From: Thermoplasmatota archaeon
GTDB taxonomy: Archaea; Thermoplasmatota; E2; DHVEG-1
Direction of reading: 5' to 3'
NCBI GenBank assembly: GCA_030615845.1
Contig: JAUWYM010000058.1
Location: 1-6,028 of the forward strand
DNA length: 6,028 nucleotides
The position numbers were made by a program, and so were the translations under genes. A model generated the notes under the pieces. It ran no database searches, had not been told where the DNA came from, and worked only from the letters and a program-made list of their open reading frames with translations. Positions 1-6,028 of the stretch are shown here, in pieces. How positions within the stretch are numbered: position 1 is the stretch's first letter; the number at the start of each line of letters is the position of its first letter.

Positions 1-975
1 AAAGGAAATCTTGATGTTGAACAAGAAAGAAGTGAAATATTTGAAATAAATAACCTGACAGAATCACTTAATAGAGTCATGACGAGCTTAAAACTAGCGA
101 TACAAAAGGTGGGAGTAAAAAAAGGAGAGATATTCGAAGAAACACTAAAAGCAAAAGAAGTAGCTGAAGAAAAATACCGAGATCTGTTAAAAAATATTGA
201 TGATTGGGCATGGGAGACTGATGCAAAAGGTGTGTATATTGCTTGCTCTGCAAAGGTTGCCGAAACATTAGGATATACGCCAGAAGAGGTTATAGGTAAA
301 TCTGTTTTTGAACTCATGCCTTCTGAAGAAGCAAAAAAAACTGAAGCAGTATTTAAAGATGCCCGTGAAAAGCAGGGGCCGATACATAAACTTGAGAATT
401 ATTATATTCATAAAGATGGGAGCAAGGTGTGCATCTTTACTAATGCTGTTCCCGTATTTGATGGAGAGGGTGGTTTTCGAGGATACCGCGGGATACATAA
501 AGATATCACCACTCATGTTCAATCAGAGCAAAAAATTGAAGAGTTAATTATAAAAAATAAGAGACTTCGGGAGATGAGAATAAAAGCCCCACATGTTTTC
601 GATGAATTAGATGGTATCGAAGAAAAACTTACAGATGCAGAAGATAACTTAGAGGAAAAGCGGTCTGAGGATGAATTTGATTATATGTTTCTTTTTGATG
701 AAAAGGCAAATATTGTTGACTGTAGTGAAAATATTGATAAGAAACTTGGTTATAAAAAAGACGAGATGCTGTTGTTCAATCTCGCAGATTTTGATTTAAT
801 AGAAAATAAAGATGACATCGAAGAGAAAATAAAGCAAATTAAAAAACACGGGAGTGTTCGTTTAAAGACTATCCATAAAAGGAAAAATGGCTCTTCAGTT
901 CTCGTTACCGAAAATATTGAGTATCTAAAAGATAAACATATGTTTAGATGTACTGTAAAAAAGGATTCTTGCTAA
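1..975 (+). CDS. HAMP-PAS-PAS sensor protein, 3' part (5' end outside window)
   Basis: The reading frame is open from base 1, so this is the C-terminal 324 residues of a longer protein; the ATG at 79 is internal. Residues 1-35 look like the second half of a HAMP linker (GNLDVE, then LTESLNRVMTSLKLAI), which normally follows a transmembrane helix, so the missing part should hold membrane segments and perhaps an extracellular sensor. Residues about 58-171 are a PAS domain with PAC tail (DDWAWETDAKGVY, LGYTPEEVIGKS, HKDG, RGYRGIHKDIT). Residues about 176-221 are a charged probable coiled coil. Residues about 225-319 form a second, more divergent PAS (FLFDEKANIVDCSENI, LGYKKDEM, HKRKNGSS). The protein stops right after this PAS, with no histidine-kinase, cyclase or methyl-accepting segment. 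Known of the families: PAS domains bind small ligands or cofactors and mediate signalling, while HAMP relays signals across membranes. Ligand and partner are unknown. An ATG start at 79 would give 298 residues but would split the HAMP helix. Confidence 0.88.
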   Translation, partial: KGNLDVEQERSEIFEINNLTESLNRVMTSLKLAIQKVGVKKGEIFEETLKAKEVAEEKYRDLLKNIDDWAWETDAKGVYIACSAKVAETLGYTPEEVIGKSVFELMPSEEAKKTEAVFKDAREKQGPIHKLENYYIHKDGSKVCIFTNAVPVFDGEGGFRGYRGIHKDITTHVQSEQKIEELIIKNKRLREMRIKAPHVFDELDGIEEKLTDAEDNLEEKRSEDEFDYMFLFDEKANIVDCSENIDKKLGYKKDEMLLFNLADFDLIENKDDIEEKIKQIKKHGSVRLKTIHKRKNGSSVLVTENIEYLKDKHMFRCTVKKDSC

Positions 976-976
976 T

Positions 977-992
977 AAAGACGCTCTTTTTT
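977..992 (+). terminator. Short hairpin plus T-tract after the sensor gene
   Basis: AAAGA (977-981) pairs with TCTTT (985-989) across a 3-base loop, and the T-run continues to 992, starting just after the TAA stop. Archaeal polymerases often terminate at T-rich tracts, so this is a plausible end for the sensor transcript. The stem is only five base pairs and weak. Confidence 0.4.
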
Positions 993-993
993 A

Positions 994-1002
994 ACATATA
1001 AT
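994..1002 (+). promoter_or_regulatory. Possible TATA box for the aminotransferase gene
   Basis: ACATATAAT lies about 65 bases before the preferred start at 1065. With the usual archaeal spacing of roughly 25 bases, transcription would start near 1020-1028. No convincing BRE is seen directly upstream, so the match is tentative in an A+T-rich spacer. Confidence 0.3.
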
Positions 1003-1045
1003 TTTACTTTTGAATAACCATCAACTATTTATGTAAAATTTCTAT

Positions 1046-1050
1046 GAGGG
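1046..1050 (+). promoter_or_regulatory. Shine-Dalgarno-like GAGGG bearing on the aminotransferase start
   Basis: GAGGG lies inside the longest possible reading frame, just after ATG 1044, so it argues against that ATG. It is 5 bases before TTG 1056 and 14 before ATG 1065. Homology favours 1065, while spacing favours 1056. Confidence 0.4.
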
Positions 1051-1064
1051 ATTATTTGATTTCT

Positions 1065-2273
1065 ATGATAAAAGCATCAAAACGTTCACAAGGTGTTTCC
1101 TATGCCATACGCGACGTAGTTCTTCCTGCAAAGAAATTAGAAAAAAAAGGTATCCACGTTCTACATCTCAACATTGGCGATCCAAACAAATATGATTTTG
1201 ACACGCCGCAGCATATGAAAGATGCTCTCTTTCAAGCTGCAAATGAAGGACATAATGGTTATGCTCCTTCAGAAGGCTATTTAGAATTAAGAAATACAAT
1301 TGTTGAACGGGAACATAAGAGAAATAATGTTACCTATGTTCCTGATGATATTTGTATTACAACAGGCGTTACTGAATCCCTTCAGATACTTCTCAATGCA
1401 TCACTTGACTCTTCAGATGAGCTTTTGATACCTGGTCCAACCTATCCACAATATACACTCATTACACGTTTTAATAACGCTGAACCAGTTGCATACCGGT
1501 GTATCGAAGAAGACGGATGGCAGCCGGATGTAGAAGATATTCGGAAGAAGATATCAAAACGTACGAAAGGAATAGTTCTTATTAATCCAAATAATCCGAC
1601 AGGGGCGTTATACTCAAAAAAGGTTATAAAAAATATTCTTGATATCGCAGGTGAATATGGAATTCCTGTAATCTCTGATGAAATTTATGATGATATCACC
1701 TTTGATGGGAAACAATATGCAACAGCATCTCTCGCTAATGATGTACCTGTTATAACGTTTAATGGTTTTTCCAAAGTCTATCTTGTCCCAGGATGGCGAG
1801 TGGGCTATATTTTATTTCATCATTCAGGCGAGCTTGATGAGATACATGATGCGTTTATGCGTATTGCACGTTCACGATTATGTGCAAATTCTGTTTGCCA
1901 ACGTGCTTGTATTGAGGCGTTAAAAGGTCCACAGGACCATATTGAAACGATGAATCAAAAACTACGGAAACGGCGTGATTTCGCATATAAACGACTCAAC
2001 GAAATTGAGGGTATTTCGACTGCAAAACCAGATGGTGCATTTTACATATTTCCAAAAATTGAGGCGATGGAAAAAGATCTTTGGACGGAGGATAAAGAGT
2101 TTGTTTTGGATCTATTGCATGAAACACATGTTTTGGTTGTTCATGGATCCGGTTTTTGCTCTACCTATGGTAAAAATCACTTTAGAGCAGTTATCCTCCC
2201 GCAACTGGAAACATTGGAGAAGGCATTTGATAAACTGGAACAATTTATGAACAAAAAACTCAAAACAAAATAG
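1065..2273 (+). CDS. Alanine aminotransferase (class I PLP, archaeal AlaAT type)
   Basis: Cytosolic PLP enzyme expected to transfer the amino group between alanine and 2-oxoglutarate (pyruvate and glutamate). At 402 residues it has the usual class I length. Visible landmarks (numbered from ATG 1065): substrate/N-terminal segment LNIGDP at 35-40; NPNNPTG at 174-180; SDEIYDD at 204-210, with the Asp and Tyr that contact PLP; the PLP Schiff-base Lys237 in FNGFSKVY; GWRVGY at 243-248, with phosphate-binding Arg245; and HFRAVILP at 372-379, with Arg374 for the substrate carboxylate. From memory, the order and wording of segments (IKASKR, YAIRDVVLPA, KPDGAFYIFPKIE, HVLVVHGSGF) closely follow Pyrococcus furiosus AlaAT, which begins at the equivalent of Met 1065; this favours 1065 over the upstream ATG at 1044. 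GAGGG at 1046-1050 is 14 bases from ATG 1065 and 5 bases from an in-frame TTG at 1056, so the start is not settled. Flanking T-tracts suggest a single-gene unit. Substrate preference is inferred; a broader or different aminotransferase specificity is possible. Confidence 0.9.
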   Translation: MIKASKRSQGVSYAIRDVVLPAKKLEKKGIHVLHLNIGDPNKYDFDTPQHMKDALFQAANEGHNGYAPSEGYLELRNTIVEREHKRNNVTYVPDDICITTGVTESLQILLNASLDSSDELLIPGPTYPQYTLITRFNNAEPVAYRCIEEDGWQPDVEDIRKKISKRTKGIVLINPNNPTGALYSKKVIKNILDIAGEYGIPVISDEIYDDITFDGKQYATASLANDVPVITFNGFSKVYLVPGWRVGYILFHHSGELDEIHDAFMRIARSRLCANSVCQRACIEALKGPQDHIETMNQKLRKRRDFAYKRLNEIEGISTAKPDGAFYIFPKIEAMEKDLWTEDKEFVLDLLHETHVLVVHGSGFCSTYGKNHFRAVILPQLETLEKAFDKLEQFMNKKLKTK

Positions 2274-2321
2274 TTTCCCAATCCCTTTTAATTGTGTAAT
2301 TCAAAAACTTTATCAAAATTG

Positions 2322-2342
2322 TCCCTTTTTGACTTAATTTTT
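2322..2342 (+). terminator. T-rich tract after the aminotransferase gene
   Basis: Two runs of five T (2326-2330 and 2338-2342) lie 50-70 bases after the stop at 2273, preceded by another four-T run at 2286-2289. No strong hairpin is visible. Such tracts are typical of archaeal termination, and the next gene has its own TATA-like box right after them. Confidence 0.4.
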
Positions 2343-2350
2343 GAATAATA

Positions 2351-2358
2351 ATATAAAT
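2351..2358 (+). promoter_or_regulatory. TATA-like box for the 73-residue protein gene
   Basis: ATATAAAT is a good archaeal TATA-like match 33 bases before ATG 2391. Transcription starting about 25 bases downstream would begin near 2376-2382, giving a very short leader carrying the GAGGT ribosome site at or near its 5' end. Confidence 0.45.
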
Positions 2359-2379
2359 CAATAAGACATTATACTTTTT

Positions 2380-2384
2380 GAGGT
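2380..2384 (+). promoter_or_regulatory. Shine-Dalgarno site fixing the start at ATG 2391
   Basis: GAGGT is six bases before ATG 2391. An in-frame TTG at 2385 directly abuts this site and has no spacer, so ATG 2391 is the better start. Confidence 0.6.
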
Positions 2385-2390
2385 TTGACG

Positions 2391-2612
2391 ATGGAAAAAG
2401 AAGAGACACGTGTAGTTGAAAAACTGCAATTAGATGAATATAAATCTATGGAAACACGACTTTATGGAGAATTGATTAAATCCTGTCGAAGGTATAGCAA
2501 TAAATTAAGCATTATCTCTATTGTTGGGATTCTTGACCTTGTAAAACAAGAACTTATGGATTTAGACAAGGAAAATTTACGATTTATGAGAGGAGACGCC
2601 CCCGAAGAATGA
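2391..2612 (+). CDS. Small acidic protein of unknown function (73 aa)
   Basis: I do not recognise this protein. It is 73 residues, rich in Glu, Lys, Leu and Asp, and reads as mostly helical: residues about 1-35 are charged and amphipathic, 37-51 are a more hydrophobic helix (KLSIISIVGILDLVK), and 52-73 are charged with an acidic end (APEE). The hydrophobic stretch is short and interrupted by Gly and charged residues, so a membrane segment is unlikely. There is one cysteine (Cys32), no CxxC pair, and no clear helix-turn-helix. Support for a real gene is an ATG with GAGGT at six bases, a TATA-like box 33 bases upstream, and a hairpin plus T-tract at its end. It appears to be a one-gene unit between the aminotransferase and the next operon. 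A small regulator or a protein-interaction partner are possibilities, with no evidence for either. Confidence 0.65.
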   Translation: MEKEETRVVEKLQLDEYKSMETRLYGELIKSCRRYSNKLSIISIVGILDLVKQELMDLDKENLRFMRGDAPEE

Positions 2613-2639
2613 ATAGATCTCTCATTCATTAAAATTTTT
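2608..2639 (+). terminator. Hairpin and T-tract at the end of the 73-residue gene
   Basis: AATGAAT (2608-2614) and ATTCATT (2624-2630) are perfect 7-base complements around a 9-base loop, followed by AAAATTTTT ending at 2639 and another five-T run at 2649-2653. The TGA stop at 2610-2612 sits inside the left arm. The stem is nearly all A/T, so it is weak, but position and T-tracts fit a terminator. Confidence 0.45.
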
Positions 2640-2652
2640 ACAAACTCATTTT

Positions 2653-2685
2653 TCATTTCAAAGAAAGATATGTCGGGTGAAATGA
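2653..2685 (+). repeat. Inverted repeat upstream of the 424-residue gene operon
   Basis: TCATTTCA (2653-2660) and TGAAATGA (2678-2685) are perfect 8-base complements with a 17-base loop. It overlaps a second short dyad, TGTC (2671-2674) with GACA (2684-2687). Both lie about 40-70 bases upstream of the TATA-like box at 2725, a place where an operator could sit; they could also be chance in A+T-rich DNA or part of the preceding terminator zone. Confidence 0.35.
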
Positions 2686-2724
2686 CAATCATGTAGGCAT
2701 TAAGAAATAGAAAAACAAACATTA

Positions 2725-2730
2725 TTTATA
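2725..2730 (+). promoter_or_regulatory. TATA-like box for the operon starting at 2792
   Basis: TTTATA, preceded by purine-rich sequence (GAAAAACAAAC) that could act as a BRE, lies about 65 bases before the GTG start. Transcription would start near 2750-2755, leaving a leader of roughly 40 bases with a strong ribosome site at its end. Confidence 0.4.
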
Positions 2731-2778
2731 GCGTTGTTTTATTTGCCCCTTCGTAACCAAAAAAATGTAATTATTGAG

Positions 2779-2783
2779 GGAGG
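2779..2783 (+). promoter_or_regulatory. Strong Shine-Dalgarno site fixing GTG 2792 as start
   Basis: GGAGG, within GAGGGAGG at 2776-2783, is eight bases before GTG 2792. The longer frame from TTG 2774 would place this site inside the coding sequence and leaves that TTG with no ribosome site, so GTG 2792 is preferred. Confidence 0.75.
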
Positions 2784-2791
2784 AATTATAC

Positions 2792-4066
2792 GTGTCTAAG
2801 GATATACGAAGCAAATTAATTGTAGAAAATAAAAGACTTGATGAGATAAACACTTTTTTGATGGATCCTAAAAACAAACTAGTCAATGACCTTTTGGCAG
2901 TAGTTGAAAAATATGGTGGACCTGAGGAAATAAACAGAAAAGCTAGAGAAGCAGGCAAGGTAGAAAATCTTATGAACCGGTTAAAGGAGAAAAACTCTCC
3001 CTATGTGAAAGATTTGGAATGGCTGATAGAGCAGAGAGACAATGGTACATTCATTACTGTCGGCAAATACCGTAGGAAGATTTTAGGCGATAAAACTGAA
3101 AAAACGAAATTTAACGAAGATTTTGCAGTCACTTTAGAAATAAGTGCATGTCAGTATTTTCCGTTCTTTATGACCCAAGCACGTCAGGCGGTAGAGAAAA
3201 AAGAATTGATGCCAGGTCGTTATATTCGAGTACGATGCATGAAGGAGCAGGAGGAAGACAATGATCTTTTAGCAATGAGTGCAGCTATGCAAATCATTGG
3301 AGCGAGTTGGTGTGAAACACTTGACACGCGAGGTACCGATGGGTCTAACGTCCATCTCGGCGGCCCAGAAACAATAACCGGCTATTTCGGAGGAGTAGGT
3401 CAACCAAACGATCACCCAATTCAATGGGTGGACGAATTCCTTTATTATTATACAAACTATGGTGTAAAGGAGGTATTGAACATTAATCCTGGTACCATAC
3501 TCTTAGGATATATGATGCATAAACTGGGGATAGATATAGAATTCAAGATTTCCGTTTACATGGGAAATGATAACTCCTATGCCGTGTTTTGGACGCTTAT
3601 GGCTGCCCGAATGTTTTCAAGAGAAGACGGTTCCACTTCACTTATTGGATTTAATTTCTCCAACTCCGTGAACAACGCAACTATTGAATTCAGCAGTGAC
3701 ATCAGAAAATCTCTCGGCCTTGAGGATTTTGTTAGATTCGAACATCATATTTTTGAGACATGGAAGAGCATTGTCATCCAGCCGTATGATAGAAGAGACG
3801 AGCTTTTAGAGGTTGCCTCAAAAGTAAAGAACATCAGCGCCAAACATGAAGGTGGGGAAATTTCCGTGGAGCAGAAACGAAAGCATCCCTCTGATATCCT
3901 TGAATATTTCCTGCTTAAGAAAGATATAGATGAGAAAGGACTAATGCCTGCTCTCACTCAAAACTACTTAGATAAGCATGAGACGCTAAACAACACAGCT
4001 AAGGCGCTAACCGAAGGGGGTTTGACGTTTATTGCCGCACCAAAACTACATCACAGAGGGGCATAG
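2792..4066 (+). CDS. Conserved-looking protein of unknown function, probable TIM-barrel enzyme (424 aa)
   Basis: I do not recognise this family. The protein is soluble, with no signal peptide or membrane helix. Residues 1-110 are charged and helical. From about 143 the predicted order alternates strand and helix: GRYIRVRC, helix 155-170, SWCETLDTRG, helix 209-224, KEVLNINPG, helix 235-246, FKISVYMG, helix 262-276, TSLIGFNFS, helix 295-309, FVRFEHHIFE, KNISAKHEGG, helix 367-377, and LTFIAAPKLHH near the end. By eye this fits a (beta/alpha)8 barrel. Polar residues at strand ends that could form an active site include Glu175, Asp178, Asp183, His188, Asp260, Asn288, Glu317, His318, His319, His352 and His420-421. 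A glycine-rich stretch TGYFGGVGQPNDHP (196-209) may be a loop over the site. It is the first gene of an operon, two bases from homoserine dehydrogenase, so a role in the same pathway is inferred. A cofactor-dependent lyase, aldolase or mutase is possible but unproven. The frame from TTG 2774 would add six residues. Confidence 0.85.
   Translation: MSKDIRSKLIVENKRLDEINTFLMDPKNKLVNDLLAVVEKYGGPEEINRKAREAGKVENLMNRLKEKNSPYVKDLEWLIEQRDNGTFITVGKYRRKILGDKTEKTKFNEDFAVTLEISACQYFPFFMTQARQAVEKKELMPGRYIRVRCMKEQEEDNDLLAMSAAMQIIGASWCETLDTRGTDGSNVHLGGPETITGYFGGVGQPNDHPIQWVDEFLYYYTNYGVKEVLNINPGTILLGYMMHKLGIDIEFKISVYMGNDNSYAVFWTLMAARMFSREDGSTSLIGFNFSNSVNNATIEFSSDIRKSLGLEDFVRFEHHIFETWKSIVIQPYDRRDELLEVASKVKNISAKHEGGEISVEQKRKHPSDILEYFLLKKDIDEKGLMPALTQNYLDKHETLNNTAKALTEGGLTFIAAPKLHHRGA
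4056..4061 (+). promoter_or_regulatory. Ribosome site for homoserine dehydrogenase inside the upstream gene
   Basis: GAGGGG lies in the last codons of the 424-residue gene and is seven bases before ATG 4069. The two genes are separated by only two bases, which suggests translational coupling. Confidence 0.6.
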
Positions 4067-4068
4067 GT

Positions 4069-5130
4069 ATGCACTTTAAAATAGCGTTTATCGGTTTTGG
4101 AACCGTAGGTCAAGGTCTCACGGAAATACTTTTGGAAAAAAAAGACATGCTTGTAGAAAAATACGACTTCCACTATAAAATAGTAGCTATTTCCGACATT
4201 ATGAAAGGAGCTGTTTATGATGAAAACGGTCTTGACGTGAAAAAAATACTTGATCTGGTAAAAACAGGGAAAAAACTGGATAGATATCCAAATGGTGTCA
4301 AGGGGATGGATAGTACGGCTACTATCAAGGAAACCAATGCTGATACGATTGTGGAGGTTACCTTTACTGATGTCAAAACAGGGGAACCCGCCCTTACACA
4401 CATTAAAGCTGCCCTTGATGCCGGAAAAAATGTAGTGTCTACCAATAAGGGCCCGGTAGTGAAGCAGGCTGTGGAACTTTTAGATATGGCAGCAAAAAAT
4501 AACGTACATTATGGATTTGAGGGTGTCGTACTTGCCGGTACTCCTGCATTGAATCTCGCCAGATACACCCTCGCAGGAAACAAGATCACTGGTTTCAAAG
4601 GCATATTGAATGGTACCACCAACTACATCCTCACCCGAATGGAGGAAGGCATGTCGTATGATGATGCACTAAAAAAGGCACAAGACCTTGGATATGCTGA
4701 AGCTGATCCAACTGGAGATGTGGAGGGTTTTGATGCTCTTGGGAAGGTAGTCATTTTATCCAATGTTGTACTGGGAAAGAATCTGTCGTGGAAAGATGTC
4801 GAAAGACAAGGAATTACTGAAATTACGAGAGAAGATGTTGAGAAAGCAAAGGCTGAAGGAAAACGATGGAAGCTCATAGGGAGCGCAGAGGTCCAGTCAG
4901 ACGATTCTGTGAAGGCAAAGGTTTGGCCGGAAAAGCTGTCGCTCAGTGATCCTCTTGCTGGTGTTTGCGATGCTATCAACGCATTAACATACTATACCGA
5001 TGAATTAGGTCCAGTAACTATCATTGGTCCTGGTGCTGGCCGTAGGGAAACTGGTTTTTCGCTGCTTATTGATCTTTTGGAGATAAACCGAAAATCAACT
5101 GAAAAAACTGTTATTAAGAAGGTAGCCTAA
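4069..5130 (+). CDS. hom: Homoserine dehydrogenase, single-domain without ACT
   Basis: Catalyses NAD(P)-linked reduction of L-aspartate 4-semialdehyde to L-homoserine, the branch step to threonine and methionine. At 353 residues it has the nucleotide-binding domain GFGTVGQG at 9-16; STNKGP at 124-129, with catalytic Lys127; NGTTNYIL at 181-188; YAEADPT at 209-215; and the acidic/lysine set Glu211, Asp217, Asp222, Lys226, which matches the yeast enzyme's key residues Glu208, Asp214, Asp219 and Lys223. GPGAGRRETGF (320-330) is a variant of the family's GRGAG segment near the C-terminus. There is no aspartokinase fusion and no C-terminal ACT domain, so feedback inhibition by threonine through ACT is not expected. 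The gene starts two bases after the 424-residue gene and is 26 bases before the aldehyde oxidoreductase. The usual partners aspartokinase, semialdehyde dehydrogenase, homoserine kinase and threonine synthase are not in the window. All catalytic residues are present, so an active enzyme is likely; a related semialdehyde substrate cannot be excluded. Confidence 0.93.
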   Translation: MHFKIAFIGFGTVGQGLTEILLEKKDMLVEKYDFHYKIVAISDIMKGAVYDENGLDVKKILDLVKTGKKLDRYPNGVKGMDSTATIKETNADTIVEVTFTDVKTGEPALTHIKAALDAGKNVVSTNKGPVVKQAVELLDMAAKNNVHYGFEGVVLAGTPALNLARYTLAGNKITGFKGILNGTTNYILTRMEEGMSYDDALKKAQDLGYAEADPTGDVEGFDALGKVVILSNVVLGKNLSWKDVERQGITEITREDVEKAKAEGKRWKLIGSAEVQSDDSVKAKVWPEKLSLSDPLAGVCDAINALTYYTDELGPVTIIGPGAGRRETGFSLLIDLLEINRKSTEKTVIKKVA

Positions 5131-5141
5131 CATCTATCAAT

Positions 5142-5150
5142 AGGGAAGGT
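5142..5150 (+). promoter_or_regulatory. Ribosome site for the aldehyde oxidoreductase gene
   Basis: AGGGAAGGT lies six bases before ATG 5157. An in-frame TTG at 5154 immediately precedes the ATG, but the ATG has the better spacing. No promoter or terminator is seen in the 26-base gap, which supports cotranscription. Confidence 0.5.
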
Positions 5151-5156
5151 AATTTG

Positions 5157-6028
5157 ATGAGTGGTGGATACACAGGAAAAATGCTGAGTATCGATCTAAA
5201 AACTCATTCTACAACAGTAGAAAAAACAGATATGGATGATGCAGAAAAATTCATTGGAGCAAAAGGACTTGGAGCTAAAATTCTCCTCGAGAGACTTCCA
5301 AAAGGAACAGATCCTCTAGCACCAGAGAATATCTTGATGTTTACAACGGGACCTCTTACTGGCACTAAAGCACAGACCTCTGGCCGGGGGACAGTAGTTA
5401 CAAAATCTCCTCAGACAAATCTTTTCTTGGACTCTCATTTCGGTGGAAGCTTTGCTGTAGAAATAAAGAAGGCAGGCTGGGATTTCATCATATTCAACGG
5501 GCGATCTGACTCTCCAATTTACGTTGTTATAAAAGACGATTCAGTTGAGTTTAAAGACGCCTCTGCAGTATGGGGAAAAGAATGCCTTAAGACTCATAAT
5601 TGGCTACAAAAGACTGAAGGAAAAGTAAAAACTGCTGTTATCGGACCGGCTGGAGAGAATCTTGTAAAGTTTTCAGCCATCACTGTGGATGGCCATCGTC
5701 ATGCAGGAAGAGGCGGGTCAGGAGCAGTTATGGGTTCTAAACATCTCAAAGCTATAGCAATTACTGGAAGTGGAAAAATACCCTTGCATGATTCTGAAGG
5801 ATTCAATACTAAGGCTAAAGAGGTACTGAAAAAGATTCAGGAAAACAATTTTGTCCCTATACGAAGGAAATTTGGGACCCCATATTGGGTTAAACCGGTA
5901 AATGACTGGGGATTTATTCCAACGATGAACTATCAGGAGGGTAATTTTGAATATGGTGATGAAATCAATGCCGAGACCATGCAGAAGAGAATTGTGGACG
6001 GTTCTGGGGCTTGTTGGAATTGCGTTAT
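5157..6028 (+). CDS. Aldehyde:ferredoxin oxidoreductase, tungsten type, N-terminal part (cut by window end)
   Basis: Oxidises aldehydes to carboxylic acids with ferredoxin as electron acceptor, using a tungsten bis-pterin cofactor and one [4Fe-4S] cluster. The first 290 codons are present and open to the right edge; the family usually runs to about 600 residues. Landmarks: GPLTGT at 65-70; SGRGTVVTKSP at 75-85; SHFGG at 93-97; IGPAGENLVKFSAI at 162-175; and DGHRHAGRGGSGAVMGSKH within 178-196, the pterin-binding segment. Cys286 and Cys289 in ACWNC correspond, from memory, to Cys288 and Cys291 of Pyrococcus furiosus AOR, the first two cluster ligands; the other two lie beyond the edge. The family also includes formaldehyde, glyceraldehyde-3-phosphate and WOR4/WOR5 members, and the substrate cannot be read from this half. 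It sits 26 bases after homoserine dehydrogenase in the same direction, so it is probably in the same operon. Confidence 0.93.
   Translation, partial: MSGGYTGKMLSIDLKTHSTTVEKTDMDDAEKFIGAKGLGAKILLERLPKGTDPLAPENILMFTTGPLTGTKAQTSGRGTVVTKSPQTNLFLDSHFGGSFAVEIKKAGWDFIIFNGRSDSPIYVVIKDDSVEFKDASAVWGKECLKTHNWLQKTEGKVKTAVIGPAGENLVKFSAITVDGHRHAGRGGSGAVMGSKHLKAIAITGSGKIPLHDSEGFNTKAKEVLKKIQENNFVPIRRKFGTPYWVKPVNDWGFIPTMNYQEGNFEYGDEINAETMQKRIVDGSGACWNCV

Follow-up and report, generated by a model that had tools for sequence, protein, structure and literature searches.

The window analysed here is a 6,028-nucleotide stretch of DNA from a Thermoplasmatota archaeon (GenBank assembly GCA_030615845.1, contig JAUWYM010000058.1, positions 1 to 6,028 of the forward strand). 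It contains a gene for a 424-residue protein without an assigned family (hereafter the barrel protein), which is followed after 2 bases by a gene for homoserine dehydrogenase (HSD) and then by a gene for aldehyde:ferredoxin oxidoreductase (AOR), an arrangement given in a preliminary description of this DNA and confirmed by our gene calls. The observation is real and the family is widespread, and the function is a prediction: we tentatively propose that the barrel protein makes homoserine, probably by isomerising threonine, for breakdown by the enzymes encoded next to it. The main features are as follows.

1044-2273, + strand: AlaT-like aminotransferase, upstream of the gene for the barrel protein (PRK08363 above cut-off)
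2776-2783, + strand: ribosome-binding site GAGGGAGG, from sequence reading, 8 bases ahead of the GTG start
2792-4066, + strand: 424-residue protein, predicted homoserine-forming enzyme, no family assigned (GTG start, TAG stop)
2792-3127, + strand: N-terminal helical domain, residues 1-112 (predicted model)
3128-4030, + strand: predicted TIM barrel, residues 113-413 (predicted model, Foldseek and VIA matches)
3326-3400, + strand: loop that follows strand 3 (residues 179-203; not defined in the predicted model)
4069-5130, + strand: HSD (ATG start; PF00742 and PRK06270; motif GYAEADPTGDVEGFDALGK at 4690-4746)
5157-6028, + strand: AOR, 5' part (ATG at 5157; AFOR_N, E 3.4e-76), running off the end of the window

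A TTG codon 18 bases upstream of the GTG at 2792 would give a protein of 430 residues; the GTG is favoured because of the ribosome-binding site and because most of the aligned close homologues start there. The HSD matches PF00742 with an E value of 8.1e-59 and the NCBIfam model PRK06270 with 429.5 bits (cut-off 373), and the motif GY[AS]E[AE]DP..D..G.D...K is present in 25 of 28 clustered HSDs.

The barrel protein has no Pfam or NCBIfam match above the curated cut-offs, the best scores being 14.5 bits (cut-off 26.8) and 12.7 bits (cut-off 49.3), respectively. A single-sequence search of PDB sequences gave nothing better than E 0.47, and a PDB search with a profile of 61 relatives gave no match either. 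These results are in line with the preliminary description, which could place the protein in no known family, and its suggestion of a barrel fold agrees with the predicted structure, a TIM barrel behind a helical N-terminal domain (pLDDT 89.8, pTM 0.90). Residues 113-352 of the model form eight strands, each followed by a helix, and the Foldseek and VIA matches of the model are TIM barrels, so that the protein is predicted to adopt this fold. The 3-keto-5-aminohexanoate cleavage enzyme and other metal-dependent TIM barrels share 7-12% identity with it, tied with many other barrels, and form no common family with it. The N-terminal domain is the least conserved part (three of the 79 invariant columns) and found no Foldseek match when modelled alone, which is no proof of a new fold. 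Within the barrel, E116, R143, R148, E152, D178, K252, D260, R315, E317, H319, K351, H352, and E353 are invariant. Particularly, the most conserved stretch, with 21 invariant columns in residues 176-206, includes the loop 179-203, which is likely a ligand or cofactor loop.

A protein search recovered at least 8,000 clusters at E <= 0.001, with query coverage of 95-100% in the best 120 of them. In the phylum of the window, 35 of 292 sampled genomes carry the gene. Contigs of named genomes contain at least 562 encoding stretches, from which 80 were kept as named loci (63-89% identity). Their archaeal hosts belong to Thermoplasmata, Undinarchaeales, Bathyarchaeota, and Loki- and Heimdallarchaeota, and their bacterial hosts to Caldiserica, Bipolaricaulota, Anaerolineae and other Chloroflexi, Deltaproteobacteria, Spirochaetales, Firmicutes, and others. 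A relative with 57% identity is encoded on plasmid CP087967.1 of Polaromonas sp. P1-6 (L171:15001-16272), a cultured betaproteobacterium, and this branch is a possible handle for genetics.

Gene neighbourhoods were compared in the phylum at 30 loci from 30 of the 35 carrier genomes, omitting four fragmentary loci and that of the window itself. The gene that comes next is HSD in 28 of these loci (L047 and L050 are without it), and the pairing is therefore not due to chance. After HSD comes AOR in 24 of the 30 and an aldehyde dehydrogenase in three (L021, partial, L046, and L048), and an AlaT-like aminotransferase follows AOR in many of the loci with enough DNA. An aldehyde dehydrogenase also stands in AOR's place in L126 and L069 (the same record as L046); the slot is filled by two unrelated aldehyde-oxidising families. 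The 80 named loci, which overlap with the phylum sample in genomes and are thus not independent of it, were scored within three genes on both strands. HSD occurs in 27, AOR or aldehyde dehydrogenase in 25, an AlaT-like aminotransferase in 25, PanB in 15, and a fusion of dihydrodipicolinate synthase (DHDPS) with Fae in eight, and HSD is never found together with PanB or the fusion. The idea that the gene travels with HSD and AOR, raised in the preliminary description, thus holds for most of the phylum sample but not always, as it is found with PanB in many bacteria and with DHDPS-Fae in several archaea.

PanB, DHDPS-Fae, and aldehyde dehydrogenase were assigned to Pfam families from one representative each, and the assignments were extended by clustering. 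PanB (PF02548, E 8.7e-107 in L124) mostly lies directly upstream of the barrel gene, the two being about 10-20 bases apart in ten loci, and all 15 PanB neighbours contain the metal-binding GDS motif and the KLEG motif. In L092, L110, L124, and L130, the order is AsnC regulator, PanB, barrel gene, and AlaT-like gene. The fusion combines PF00701 with PF08714 (L119:6351-7832, - strand), and relatives of it are found in L074, L088, L097, L117, L121, L122, L125, and L129. Its DHDPS part has Cys in place of the Arg of the YNxPxRTx motif in seven of nine cases, the other two being unreadable; this Arg, which we take to be Arg138 of E. coli DHDPS, is present in the DHDPS structures 2yxg and 3pud. Judged from these residues and domains, the fusion looks like an aldolase for 4-hydroxy-2-oxobutanoate (HOB) that passes formaldehyde on to methanopterin.

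The HSD set and the PanB/DHDPS-Fae set meet at homoserine, and homoserine is therefore the most likely product of the barrel protein, an assignment that we make with some confidence. The preliminary description had envisaged a step linked to homoserine or aspartate semialdehyde. The neighbourhoods largely bear out the link to homoserine, whereas aspartate semialdehyde is less favoured because the PanB and DHDPS-Fae loci share homoserine with the HSD loci.

In the proposed pathway, the barrel protein would convert threonine to its isomer homoserine. In the operon of the window, HSD would oxidise homoserine to aspartate semialdehyde, AOR (aldehyde dehydrogenase in some relatives) would convert the latter to aspartate, and the aminotransferase would yield oxaloacetate. 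In PanB or DHDPS-Fae loci, homoserine would be transaminated to HOB, which would be split into pyruvate and a one-carbon (C1) unit, carried on tetrahydrofolate (PanB) or tetrahydromethanopterin (Fae). A report on the synthetic homoserine cycle records HOB aldolase and HOB aminotransferase activities for E. coli enzymes (PMC8879981). In that cycle, an aldolase and an aminotransferase likewise connect pyruvate, C1, HOB, and homoserine, whereas the gene sets described here are natural, would likely run toward pyruvate and C1, and would draw homoserine from an enzyme without an assigned family. Anaerobic threonine breakdown, according to a review, starts with dehydration to 2-oxobutyrate by threonine dehydratase, a pyridoxal phosphate (PLP) enzyme (PMC8473912); that route would share the amino acid used, but it leads to 2-oxobutyrate, not homoserine. 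Among titles and abstract openings of the open-licence literature, we recognised no description of a threonine-homoserine isomerase or of this pathway.

The direction of the pathway was considered in 13 genomes that carry the HSD operon, namely 12 Thermoplasmatota chosen for completeness from 28, plus G315. The operon HSD is the sole HSD in all 13. Aspartokinase is above cut-off in one (G172), with a match in G006 that is partial and weak. The semialdehyde dehydrogenase domain, also found in ArgC, is present in two (G172 and G094), and threonine synthase is above cut-off in one (G088, barely). Each of these searches was positive in 14 of 14 control genomes. Compared with threonine biosynthesis (LysC, Asd, HSD, ThrB, and ThrC), these genomes have HSD and its substrates in common, whereas they are almost entirely devoid of LysC, the Asd domain, and ThrC and have AOR or aldehyde dehydrogenase in addition. 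Gene order, neighbour families, and the missing biosynthetic partners of HSD are direct observations, and the barrel is predicted. Moreover, threonine synthase is above cut-off in 11 of 14 PanB-type genomes (covering 14 of the 15 PanB loci), so the barrel protein is not needed for threonine there. Given that an aldehyde dehydrogenase can take the place of AOR, that LysC and Asd are mostly absent, and that most PanB-type genomes have threonine synthase, the operon HSD is very likely catabolic, and the pathway probably runs in the catabolic direction.

If homoserine is indeed the product, HSD would have a catabolic role, and the release of C1 units from homoserine would be a natural function of PanB and DHDPS-Fae. 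An unnamed family of at least 8,000 clusters is found next to an apparent amino-acid breakdown route in sediment archaea (Thermoplasmatota, Bathyarchaeota, and Asgard) and many bacteria. If the proposal is true, it would be a misreading of the genomes of these lineages to deduce threonine or methionine synthesis from HSD; the route would be an amino-acid breakdown pathway so far undescribed, a natural, reverse-running counterpart of the synthetic homoserine cycle, and isomerisation of threonine to homoserine would be new as an enzyme reaction and useful for C1 biotechnology as well.

Several observations weigh against this proposal. Threonine as the substrate is a tentative choice, made from chemistry and abundance alone, and its conversion to homoserine, by a shift of the hydroxyl or the glycyl group, needs radical-type or PLP chemistry, for which we recognised no cofactor site; tests for a B12 mutase mechanism, described below, gave no support. 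None of the partners is present in 27 of the 80 named loci, and one more has only FTHFS. The Caldiserica genomes G323 and G324 have threonine synthase as well as AOR beside the gene (G323 also HSD), so the pattern of missing biosynthesis is not universal. The DHDPS-Fae archaea have threonine synthase in four of five genomes, yet HSD in none of three (G311, G312, and G313), which makes the homoserine source and the direction of flux less certain there. In Polaromonas, the neighbours are an FAD oxidoreductase, a DapA that keeps its Arg, a TRAP transporter, an iron-type alcohol dehydrogenase (Fe-ADH), and an aldehyde dehydrogenase, and N230, N232, and N259 of the barrel protein are replaced; given these neighbours and substitutions, the family may contain more than one activity. 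The fullest form of the proposal, a threonine-homoserine mutase without a recognised B12 subunit as the gateway of a widespread natural route from threonine to aspartate or to pyruvate and activated C1, is accordingly put forward with considerable doubt.

A different precursor competes seriously with threonine, although we rate it below threonine: homoserine would be released by hydrolysis or lysis, with no radical cofactor, from another aminocarboxypropyl compound such as methionine, S-methylmethionine, or an O- or N-substituted homoserine. The neighbours fit it as well as they fit threonine, and the invariant His, Asp, and Glu residues could hold a metal. It also agrees with the six of 22 carriers, mostly incomplete metagenome-assembled genomes (MAGs), that are without PF01923, PF02572, and TIGR02504 (two adenosyltransferase types and NrdJ). 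However, no gene for handling sulfur or another released group recurs beside the barrel gene in the inspected loci, and thioether hydrolysis is energetically uphill.

It is rather unlikely that the barrel protein has some other function, with its neighbours linked indirectly through shared regulation or through a different aldehyde or 2-oxoacid. The loci devoid of all partners would suit such a function, as would different neighbours elsewhere, such as a CooC-like ATPase with fumarase (L090, L091, L093, and L096), Fe-ADH (L108), or a TRAP transporter (L127). Yet the three sets of partners, found in lineages far apart, all point to a single metabolite, and they lie close to the gene: 15 of 15 PanB, eight of nine DHDPS-Fae, and 24 of 28 HSD genes are within 500 bases of it in the 80 loci.

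Less probable still is a reverse flux, in which homoserine, formed from aspartate via AOR and HSD or from pyruvate and C1 via PanB or DHDPS-Fae and the aminotransferase, would be what the barrel protein consumes, for instance to make threonine without ThrB and ThrC. All neighbour enzymes are reversible in principle, threonine synthase is below cut-off or missing in most HSD-operon genomes, and the DHDPS-Fae archaea G311-G313 are without HSD. The aldehyde dehydrogenases that replace AOR nevertheless speak against this direction, since such enzymes oxidise, as do the missing aspartokinase and semialdehyde dehydrogenase and the threonine synthase present in most PanB-type and DHDPS-Fae genomes.

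Equally improbable is that the protein acts like glutamate mutase, as a carbon-skeleton mutase with coenzyme B12: a glycyl group would migrate to turn threonine into homoserine, in analogy to the conversion of 3-methylaspartate to glutamate. Such a mechanism would belong to the favoured threonine-to-homoserine reading and is not a competing function. The large subunit of glutamate mutase (MutE/GlmE, PF06368) shares with the predicted model a barrel with helices in front, and its reaction is analogous to the one proposed, and glutamate mutase is the sole VIA match that also spans the N-terminal helices; the VIA list leaves out some families, such as diol dehydratase and ethanolamine ammonia-lyase, and is silent on those. 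A comparison with four GlmE sequences of PF06368 by hhalign showed no profile similarity (probability 0.2%), although the profiles were shallow (Neff about 2). The B12-binding partner that glutamate mutase requires is also not found throughout, as domain PF02310 is present in 16 of 18 carriers and not in the incomplete MAGs G303 and G309. These two are among the six carriers without the three B12 markers, as is G312, which does have a B12-binding domain. Absence of an adenosyltransferase alone proves little, because the Thermoplasmatota genomes G132 and G044 have NrdJ, the AdoCbl-type ribonucleotide reductase, but neither of the two adenosyltransferase families searched for. The protein might also bind B12 with no separate binding domain. 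A riboswitch and T-box search in 24 sources found only tRNAs and one cobalamin riboswitch (L110), which lies about 5 kb downstream of the barrel gene and not ahead of its operon. In the Lokiarchaeota genome of L088, a frame of 585 residues (L133:526-2280, + strand) weakly matches methylaspartate mutase E (29.1 bits, cut-off 26.6), and the front part of the frame looks, by eye, like a B12-binding domain.

The remaining features of the window lie upstream of the barrel gene.

1-975, + strand: PAS-domain protein
2391-2612, + strand: 73-residue open reading frame (ORF call)

The 73-residue frame has no Pfam match, and it also precedes the barrel gene in L051, a close relative. An in-frame TAG flagged as possible pyrrolysine in L027 and L028 is the gene's own terminal stop, as seen in L028 and L072 (one contig with L027), and pyrrolysine was rejected.

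Other genes also recur near the barrel gene. Beside the Thermoplasmata operon, genes for a thiamine-binding protein (PF01910) and for subunits resembling pyruvate:ferredoxin oxidoreductase (one scanned, PF01558) are found in L053, L055-L058, L061-L064, L066, L083, and L100. In the four Ardenticatenales and Anaerolineales loci with a CooC-like ATPase, this gene follows the barrel gene (PF01656 in L096), and a fumarase-like gene comes after it in three of the four (PF05681 in L093). In L108, Fe-ADH is a neighbour of the barrel gene. Finally, a TRAP transporter DctM gene lies immediately upstream of the barrel gene in L127 (L127:6496-7830, + strand), and this transporter, which also has a counterpart near the Polaromonas gene, could import the substrate.
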